Positions 63,224-64,000 of a stretch of 64,000 nt of DNA are shown piece after piece; the stretch's first letter is position 1, and every line of letters begins with the position of its first letter. Source of the DNA: Streptomyces avicenniae (GTDB taxonomy: Bacteria > Actinomycetota > Actinomycetes > Streptomycetales > Streptomycetaceae). The position numbers and the translations under genes were made by a program. Location of the stretch: assembly GCF_000719135.1 (NCBI RefSeq), contig NZ_JOEK01000010.1, positions 160,553-224,552 of the forward strand, in the 5' to 3' direction. A model generated the notes under the pieces. It saw nothing but the letters and a program-made list of their open reading frames with translations. It searched no databases and was not told where the DNA came from.

Positions 63224-64000
63224 ATGACGACTTCAACCGGACCCGCTCCCGAAAACGCGGCGGAAACAAGCCCGTTGAGCCTTACGACGGCGGCGGCGCG
63301 GAATCTGGCGACCACCACCAAGACGCCCCCGCAGATGCAGGAGATCAGCTCCCGCTGGCTGCTCAAGGTCCTTCCCTGGACGCAGGTCTCCGGCGGGACG
63401 TTCCGCGTGAACCGCCGCCTCACGCACACGCTCGGGAACGGGCGCGTCGAATTCGTCTCGACCGGCACCGACATCCGCGTCATCCCGGCCGAGCTGGGCG
63501 AACTCCCCGCCCTCGCGGGCTACTCGGACGACGCCGTGCTGCAACGGCTCGCCGCCGCCTTCACGCAGCACGACTTCAGGCCGGGCGACGTCCTCGCGCG
63601 CGCGGGCGACCCCGCCGACCAGGTCGTCCTGGTCGCCCACGGCAAGGTGAGCAGGCGCGGCCCCGGCCGCTACGACACCGAGACGGAGCACGGCGTCCTG
63701 GCCGGGGGCGACTTCGACGGCGACCGGCTCCTCACCGACGACGACCCCGGTACGTGGCGCTACAGCCTGGTGGCGCTCACCGGCGGCACCGTCCTCACGG
63801 CGGGCGCGCAGGACCTCCGCGGGATCGCCGACGCCGCGCCCGGCCTGGCCGCCCACCTGGACGCCGCGCGCGCCACCGCCGCCACGGCGCACAACGCCGC
63901 AGGTGAGGCGGCGATCGAGGTGGCGTCGGGGCATGTGGGTGAGCCGGTGTTGCCGGGGACGTTCGTGGATTACGAGGTGTCGCCTCGTGAGTACGAGTTG
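63224..64000 (+). CDS. Family 2B encapsulin shell protein (3'-truncated by window)
   Basis: 259 codons are visible and the frame is still open at the window end. The N-terminus, LTTAAARNLATTTKTPPQMQ then SSRWLLKVLPWTQVSGGTFRVNRR, is the start of the HK97-fold family 2 encapsulins. From about residue 90 to 215 a cyclic-nucleotide-binding-like barrel is inserted (LAAAFTQHDFRPGDVLARAG, VVLVAHGKVSRR), which defines family 2B; shell sequence resumes at VLPGTFVDYEVSPREYEL. Known Streptomyces members enclose terpene cyclases such as 2-methylisoborneol synthase, or polyprenyl transferases. The ATG has only a weak SD. Confidence 0.9.
   Translation, partial: MTTSTGPAPENAAETSPLSLTTAAARNLATTTKTPPQMQEISSRWLLKVLPWTQVSGGTFRVNRRLTHTLGNGRVEFVSTGTDIRVIPAELGELPALAGYSDDAVLQRLAAAFTQHDFRPGDVLARAGDPADQVVLVAHGKVSRRGPGRYDTETEHGVLAGGDFDGDRLLTDDDPGTWRYSLVALTGGTVLTAGAQDLRGIADAAPGLAAHLDAARATAATAHNAAGEAAIEVASGHVGEPVLPGTFVDYEVSPREYEL

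Follow-up and report, generated by a model that had tools for sequence, protein, structure and literature searches.

The window (the 64,000-nucleotide stretch of DNA analysed here, G000:C10:160553-224552) ends within a gene for a family 2B encapsulin shell protein, enc1. Given that contig C10 is 224552 bases long, position 64000 is also the end of the assembled contig. The features of the window that are considered below are as follows.

58022..60397, + strand: up2, 791 aa, without a Pfam or NCBIfam family; a conserved neighbour of the AAA gene, used as a synteny marker only
60422..62842, - strand: AAA gene, beta-helix (NosD-like) plus SpoVK/CbbX-type AAA ATPase, 806 aa; divergent neighbour of enc1
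63224..64000, + strand: 5' part of enc1, 301.7 bits on NF041163; cut by the contig end
63572..63829, + strand: cyclic-nucleotide-binding-like insert in the E-loop, residues 117-202 (PF00027)
63902..64000, + strand: left end of the homogenised segment, which is defined on other genomes; shifted codon use

The gene starts with the ATG at 63224, and its frame is open to the last base (259 codons). Its product scored 301.7 bits (E 1.1e-89) against NCBIfam NF041163 (encap_f2b), aligning to model positions 1-239 of 450. This is below the whole-protein cut-off of 400, as would be expected with half of the gene missing; the full-length orthologues at the S. hoynatensis locus (L077) score 753 bits (Enc1) and 708 bits (Enc2). 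The protein runs from the N-arm through the cNMP-like insert to the start of the remaining HK97 domain. The insert matched PF00027 (cNMP_binding) with 39.5 bits (cut-off 27.5), with the NF041163 alignment running through it, and residues 218-258 matched PF19307 (SrpI-like encapsulin) with 44.5 bits (cut-off 22.8). An insert of this type has been shown not to bind cyclic nucleotides, according to the consulted part of PMC12407261. Eighteen residues precede the start of the model, a length of N-terminal extension typical for family 2B (PMC8346489). Among solved structures the best matches were 9bix, 9bje and 9bhu (E 1.4e-85 to 4.7e-69), which bear the names Crp/Fnr regulator or nucleotide-binding protein in their depositions, and family 2A-like shells (e.g., 6x8m) rank next at 8e-11. 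An AlphaFold model built from a 30-sequence alignment was poor (mean pLDDT 58). NF041163 and the two Pfam domains, together with the solved relatives, bear out the original prediction of a family 2B encapsulin gene, the coordinates of which were also correct.

A prophage capsid, the alternative raised with that prediction, was rejected: the window part of the shell gene had no match in a PHROG search, and both genes directly upstream are chromosomal and occur in the same neighbourhood in other Streptomyces. Neither of these two neighbours is a phage structural gene, the AAA protein matching only ATPase-type or unknown PHROGs, and a prophage is not indicated at the gene or at either of them. 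The full-length L077 orthologue does match phrog_212, "major head protein" (28.5 bits), which the shared HK97 fold could explain.

The locus and the two shell genes

In S. hoynatensis the gene order is up2, AAA (- strand), Enc1, Enc2, DUF6643 (- strand), TerD, racemase-like, NUDIX, EIIA-type, dhaL and dhaK. In the genome under study, which is assembled in 65 contigs, up2, AAA and Enc1 stand at the window end, while contig C4 carries Enc2, DUF6643, TerD, NUDIX, EIIA, dhaL and dhaK by Pfam and NCBIfam labels, with the EIIA-type gene being of the PTS EIIA type and DUF6643 lying on the opposite strand. The AAA gene (at least 65% identity) adjoins the shell pair in 26 of 80 fetched loci; L097, the contig of which starts 1.1 kb upstream, was added to this locus type by its downstream flank.

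The AAA gene fuses a right-handed beta-helix (NosD-like) to a SpoVK/CbbX-type AAA ATPase. Orthologues are present in all 24 same-genus relatives searched, none beside a shell gene, and where the AAA gene and a shell gene share a contig in these relatives they are never within 70 kb of each other. The AAA/beta-helix protein was therefore rejected as a shell partner and is probably not part of the compartment. In ten other Streptomyces loci around the AAA gene (L201-L210) no shell gene was found at this position; a MOSC gene comes next after the AAA gene and, in the nine loci that are long enough, DUF6643 after that. Because the AAA gene is widespread in the genus without an adjoining shell gene, the shell pair is, as judged by gene order, a guest at a common Streptomyces locus.

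Five matches to the NF041163 family were found in the genome. Besides the window gene, the first bases of C4 match model positions 284-447 (312 bits); the other three are weak (23-49 bits) and cover the cNMP-like part only, so that Enc1 and Enc2 are the only family 2B shells found by this search of the contigs. If the C10 and C4 halves are taken as one gene, 44 codons are absent. The halves differ in their affinities. The window half is 72% identical to Enc1 of S. hoynatensis and 54% to its Enc2, and at L082 the values are 67 and 63%, respectively; the C4 half is more similar to Enc2 than to Enc1 both at L082 (86 vs 75%) and in S. hoynatensis (78 vs 73%). The closest Enc2-like proteins to the C4 half are those of Streptomyces sp. 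MS19 (92%) and RFCAC02 (90%), and identity between the window half and the MS19 protein is no more than 61%. C4 also encodes SRRRK, which contains the published Enc2 motif RRRK; the Enc1 counterpart, TVWK, falls in the assembly gap for the window gene. By these identities and the motif, the C10 and C4 halves are shown to belong to two different shell genes, Enc1 and Enc2.

Both genes are complete and in tandem in all 24 measured relatives of the locus type, and in every one of them the interval between the positions that match the C10 end and the C4 start measures 1564-1894 bp. At least two shell matches are present in all 27 genomes of the locus type, three of which have incomplete genes. The pair is the only family 2B shell in 25 of the 27; G073 has three matches and G082 four. 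These distances imply that about 1.6-1.9 kb, comprising the C-terminal half of Enc1 and the N-terminal half of Enc2, is missing from the assembly. No sequence was found to join C10 to C4: the last 121 bases of C10, searched in the genome, had a best other match of 25 bases, and among 392 genomes of the genus no locus was closer than 78% DNA identity.

The search for cargo beside the pair and candidates elsewhere in the genome

The original prediction placed a cargo gene just past 64000. That expectation failed, since beyond the gap lie the C-terminal half of Enc2, DUF6643, TerD, NUDIX, PTS EIIA-type and dhaL/dhaK, and the gap region itself is occupied by shell genes in relatives. Compared with the terpene cyclase, polyprenyl transferase, xylulose kinase and cysteine desulfurase types, no known cargo was found among the first six genes after Enc2 on C4 (by Pfam), and neither of the two genes upstream of enc1 is of a known family 2B cargo type; among further C4 genes, read by eye to C4:20000, no cargo enzyme was recognised. 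In seven relatives (L077, L080, L081, L083, L084, L085 and L087) the Enc2 and DUF6643 stops are 25-205 bp apart, and therefore there is no room for a cargo gene there. The Enc2-DUF6643 interval is 2.6-7.1 kb in 13 of the 20 relatives with both ends measured (L079 excluded). Varying sets of phosphoketolase, GAF-domain regulator, acetaldehyde dehydrogenase ExaC and MOSC protein genes occupy the longer intervals, in which genes were sought by marker proteins, so that further genes could have escaped notice; none of these four belongs to the cargo types published so far. Taken together, a known cargo in cis is shown to be lacking beside the pair. Two-component operons without obvious cargo have already been described (PMC12407261, as far as consulted).

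In a Streptomyces sister group, a cassette of phosphoketolase, GAF-domain regulator and ExaC genes stands directly 3' of Enc2 at the following positions.

L091, 12965-18456: phosphoketolase/GAF/ExaC cassette
L101, 11506-16958: phosphoketolase/GAF/ExaC cassette
L109, 12917-18557: phosphoketolase/GAF/ExaC cassette

Phosphoketolase and acetaldehyde dehydrogenase were rejected as cargo, since they follow Enc2 in this sister group only and are absent among the first C4 genes.

A search of the assembled genome with the terpene cyclase and polyprenyl transferase cargo families found no 2-methylisoborneol (2-MIB)-type cargo above the cut-off. A candidate is encoded on another contig.

C1:322300-324477: geosmin synthase, 1153 bits on NF041168 (encapsulin terpene cyclases)

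The score is under the NF041168 cut-off of 1200, and we read the protein as a geosmin synthase from its two-domain make-up and this match. In encapsulin-associated geosmin-synthase-like cyclases, the sequence GPTGLGTSAAR, described as a possible targeting motif, is found both in the interdomain region and C-terminally; 2-MIB-synthase-like cyclases have a GPTGLGT motif (PMC8346489, consulted in part). The C1 protein has a GPTGLGTSAAR-like motif at both published positions: GLGGLGTGTADIR between its two domains and APSGLGTSAVRPWARQAG at its C-terminus, where APSGLGTSAVR is followed by 7 residues.

We compared how far geosmin synthases of Streptomyces extend along NF041168. Of 37 two-component genomes (27 of this locus type and 10 others), 33 have a match that extends to model position 730 or beyond, compared with 18 of 34 unselected genomes (Fisher p 0.001, kinship uncorrected). 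The unselected set comprises 36 genus relatives, of which one had no match and one a fragment only, leaving 34 scored; in 16 of these the protein does not reach 730. In the two-component set, the best-scoring 30 matches, each from a different genome, were examined: a broad pattern found a G-x-G-T motif in the tail of 29, and the remaining one has GLGTSSLGV. Among the best-scoring 29 of the unselected set, a choice biased to long matches, the motif was found by pattern in 14, including L225 (a chance match in a degenerate tail); all 14 short geosmin synthases among the 29 are without the motif. The unselected set was screened for shell pairs in G001-G024 only, where shells were typed by identities and neighbours, and there the match reaches 730 in 6 of the 7 genomes that have either a pair or a 2-MIB-type shell, vs 5 of 15 others (p 0.06).

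As an observation in its own right, the C-terminus of geosmin synthase (L211-L239 and L240-L269) splits Streptomyces species into those with a GLGTSAAR-like tail and those with an unrelated tail (18 and 16, respectively, of the 34 unselected, as judged by model end).

These counts suggest an association, though not an exclusive one, between the tag and shells able to bind it. Tagged tails are also found in G002, G005, G014, G019 and G021, each of which has one genus-common single shell, whereas G013, with a 2-MIB-type shell, lacks the tag; the G023 protein reaches the model end but has the degenerate motif GFGMAAL, and that of G051, which has a pair-like double match, stops at 723. A geosmin synthase encoded in trans would enter the Enc1/Enc2 shell via a C-terminal G-L-G-T-S-A-x-R tag. 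We give slightly less than even weight to the candidate reading in which the shell receives its content in trans, most probably this enzyme through this tag.

Another trans-encoded enzyme may instead fill the pair, for example the polyprenyl transferase at C10:72157-73173, or the two enzymes may do so together. The transferase scores 439.2 bits on f2_encap_cargo4, not much below the 480 bits of the L055 polyprenyl transferase, which is encoded directly beside a shell gene; operons with both a terpene cyclase and a polyprenyl transferase have been published (PMC8346489, consulted in part). However, its score is under the cut-off of 450, its gene sits between argD and argH, and for this cargo type no tag is known from the consulted part of PMC8346489. 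We regard such a cargo as unlikely, while giving it the most weight of the competing explanations.

A shell without an enzyme cargo, in a storage or structural role, or a decaying one whose Enc2 stop has been lost, is less likely still. The Enc2 frame on C4 passes its normal end (LGILEDV, continuing as RPVAG) with no stop until base 1066, whereas Enc2 of the nearest relatives, MS19 and RFCAC02, ends in LEDVEI. It runs into the antisense DUF6643 gene, and the tail of about 189 residues had no homologue at E 0.001. Against this reading, the frames of the two halves are otherwise uninterrupted and their sequences well conserved, 27 genomes retain the two-gene locus, and the lost stop, 496 bp from the contig end, may be an assembly error. 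At L037 (G000:C4), 470-1102, Enc2 and the convergent DUF6643 are both without a stop, with the Enc2 tail antisense to DUF6643.

As a whole, the explanation that the window gene is enc1 of a tandem enc1-enc2 pair with no known cargo in cis, the shell of which would be filled in trans, seems to us somewhat better than an even proposition. The tandem genes would form a mixed two-component family 2B shell, and it is quite probable, by analogy, that Enc1 and Enc2 co-assemble like the S. lydicus pair.

The homogenised tract and the break in the assembly

The paired genes were compared in 68 loci with two complete shell genes, out of 80 fetched (8 that had a single complete gene and 4 that had none were excluded). 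At third codon positions, Enc1 and Enc2 of the same genome share 80-88% in alignment columns 225-299 and 79% in columns 300-314, vs 63-74% between Enc1 and Enc2 of different genomes for columns 225-314. Columns 210-224 are intermediate (69% own vs 54% cross-genome), and outside the tract the values are 51-76% vs 45-70%. Where the amino acid is the same, the same codon is used in 83% of cases within own pairs vs 68% between genomes for columns 211-312; the linker just before the tract (195-211) is similar (84 vs 68%), and in the remaining three segments the values are 64-67% vs 58-62%. The excess of the tract over its own flanks is found in all 68 pairs (Wilcoxon p 7.6e-13).

Trees point the same way. 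In trees of the tract, the two shell genes of one genome group as sisters in 21 of 68 loci (14 with support of at least 0.9), vs 4, 4 and 1 of 68 in three equal-length flanks and 5 of 68 in the rest of the gene. L121, L126, L128, L132, L134 and L139 are sisters outside the tract also, in one or more trees, and the likeness is therefore broader in those six loci. In a separate alignment of 28 Streptomyces loci, with columns numbered accordingly and ties counted as half, the own paralogue was the nearest sequence in 27.5 of 56 cases for columns 255-325, vs 0, 0, 0, 2 and 0 of 56 elsewhere. The longest identical runs within own pairs were 349 bp (L101) and 323 bp (L127), and cross-genome runs had a median of 24 and a maximum of 103; at L128 the longest own-pair run (239 bp) lies elsewhere in the gene, as in some other pairs. 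The tract stops just before diagnostic motif 1 (column about 316). From these patterns, about 300 bp looks to have been homogenised by gene conversion in all 68 pairs from other genomes. Conversion was measured on those genomes, and since the middle is missing here, the tract in this genome is placed by column.

Codon use is shifted in the part of the tract that the window retains. In 63902-64000, C-ending codons make up 0 of 18 for four-fold amino acids, vs 92 of 150 upstream (Fisher p 1.8e-7). Third-position identity in the tract is 90% or more in 11 of 68 pairs; in these, C-ending four-fold codons fall to 17-22% in columns 211-246, where G-ending ones rise to 72-74%, vs 32-70% C-ending before column 211 and after 283. 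Over columns 211-246, lower-identity pairs and 45 single-shell genes have 41-64%. Across all 68, identity and C-ending codons are correlated at Spearman -0.39 (p 0.001; upstream control 0.06; kinship uncorrected), and two of the 11 high-identity pairs, L094 and L111, are without the shift. The switch from C- to G-ending codons is strand-asymmetric in the window segment and in L077, L082, L101, L127 and L151.

Two other causes of the tract were rejected. Nucleotide constraint is at odds with the finding that Enc1s of different genomes are not unusually similar there. Assembly collapse as the sole cause is at odds with large single records, where own pairs still show the excess relative to their flanks (L081, L105, L114 and L137, and weakly L092); among these, own Enc1 and Enc2 are mutual best matches only in L081 and L105. 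The tract presumably comprises the end of the E-loop and the next P-domain helix, judging from the HK97 fold. Its amino-acid identity between genomes is 78%, the highest of five segments, which is compatible with a plain cause, namely that only the most conserved part of the proteins permits conversion.

Columns 240 and 284, at which the two contigs of this genome end, both fall inside the tract. The contigs of L078, L113, L115 and L129 likewise end in it, at columns of about 250, 307, 288 and 265, respectively; in S. specialis a run of N between the Enc1 and Enc2 halves starts at about column 345, past the Enc1 tract, and was not counted. A near-identical stretch of about 300 bp common to both genes would leave an assembly unresolved and break the contig, and the homogenised tract is quite probably the reason for the break in this genome. 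A single hybrid gene, with an Enc1 N-terminal half fused to an Enc2 C-terminal half through the shared tract and about 130 bp missing, is very improbable: the gap flanks, at model positions 240 and 284, are 132 bp apart inside one gene in intact relatives and the near-identical tract would permit such a deletion, but one gene has no repeat that would break the assembly there, and the relatives retain both genes as described above (24 of 24 measurable; at least two matches in 27 of 27).

Returning to the tandem pair, tandem encapsulin shell genes might evolve as if partly fused: conversion would keep about 100 codons of Enc1 and Enc2 alike for tiling one shell, with divergence confined to regions such as the cNMP-like insert and the motifs of the A-domain. 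In the orphan two-component systems of Streptomyces, geosmin synthase would then be loaded in trans. We offer this joint view tentatively and consider it somewhat more doubtful than the geosmin synthase reading taken by itself.

Comparison with known systems and significance

2-Methylisoborneol synthase has been shown to be encapsulated. The single-shell 2-methylisoborneol encapsulins (L041, L047, L057, L064 and L066) also have a family 2B shell, and the synthase next door at L041 carries GPSGLGTAA, a motif of the same type, in its N-terminal part (synthase, 503 bits on f2_encap_cargo2; methyltransferase GPPMT, 481 bits). Those loci have one shell gene with the synthase directly 3' and mostly a methyltransferase, whereas here there are two shell genes and neither enzyme. 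The family 2A shell SrpI (6x8m, 6x8t) is likewise an HK97-type family 2 shell, and its N-arm matches at E 8e-11; unlike the window gene, it has no cNMP-like insert, and its cargo is a cysteine desulfurase (PMC8346489, consulted in part).

The closest parallel is S. lydicus Sl-Enc1/Sl-Enc2, which, in the part of PMC12407261 consulted, has its shell genes in tandem, Enc1 followed by Enc2, as proposed for the present pair. It shares the cNMP-like insert with the window gene and the RRRK motif with C4. The S. lydicus system is treated as one of the xylulose-kinase type (PMC12407261), whereas the present pair lies between AAA and DUF6643 with no known cargo type. For the related xylulose-kinase two-component systems the native cargo is not known, and no mention of trans-encoded tagged cargo was found, both as far as the consulted part of that source goes. 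The terms "gene conversion", "recombination" and "duplication" are absent from its main text; in the literature searched, nothing was found on encapsulins and concerted evolution, and only giant-virus work on encapsulins and gene conversion. The shell itself is of a published kind, and the conversion tract and the trans-encoded geosmin synthase candidate go beyond what we found in print.

A sharply bounded tract in 68 of 68 pairs suggests how two capsid proteins that co-assemble could remain compatible as their inserts diverge, and also why assemblies break at this spot. The tagged geosmin synthase, the enzyme behind the smell of soil, is a candidate cargo for such a pair; if the reading is true, geosmin synthesis, like that of 2-methylisoborneol, would take place inside a compartment.
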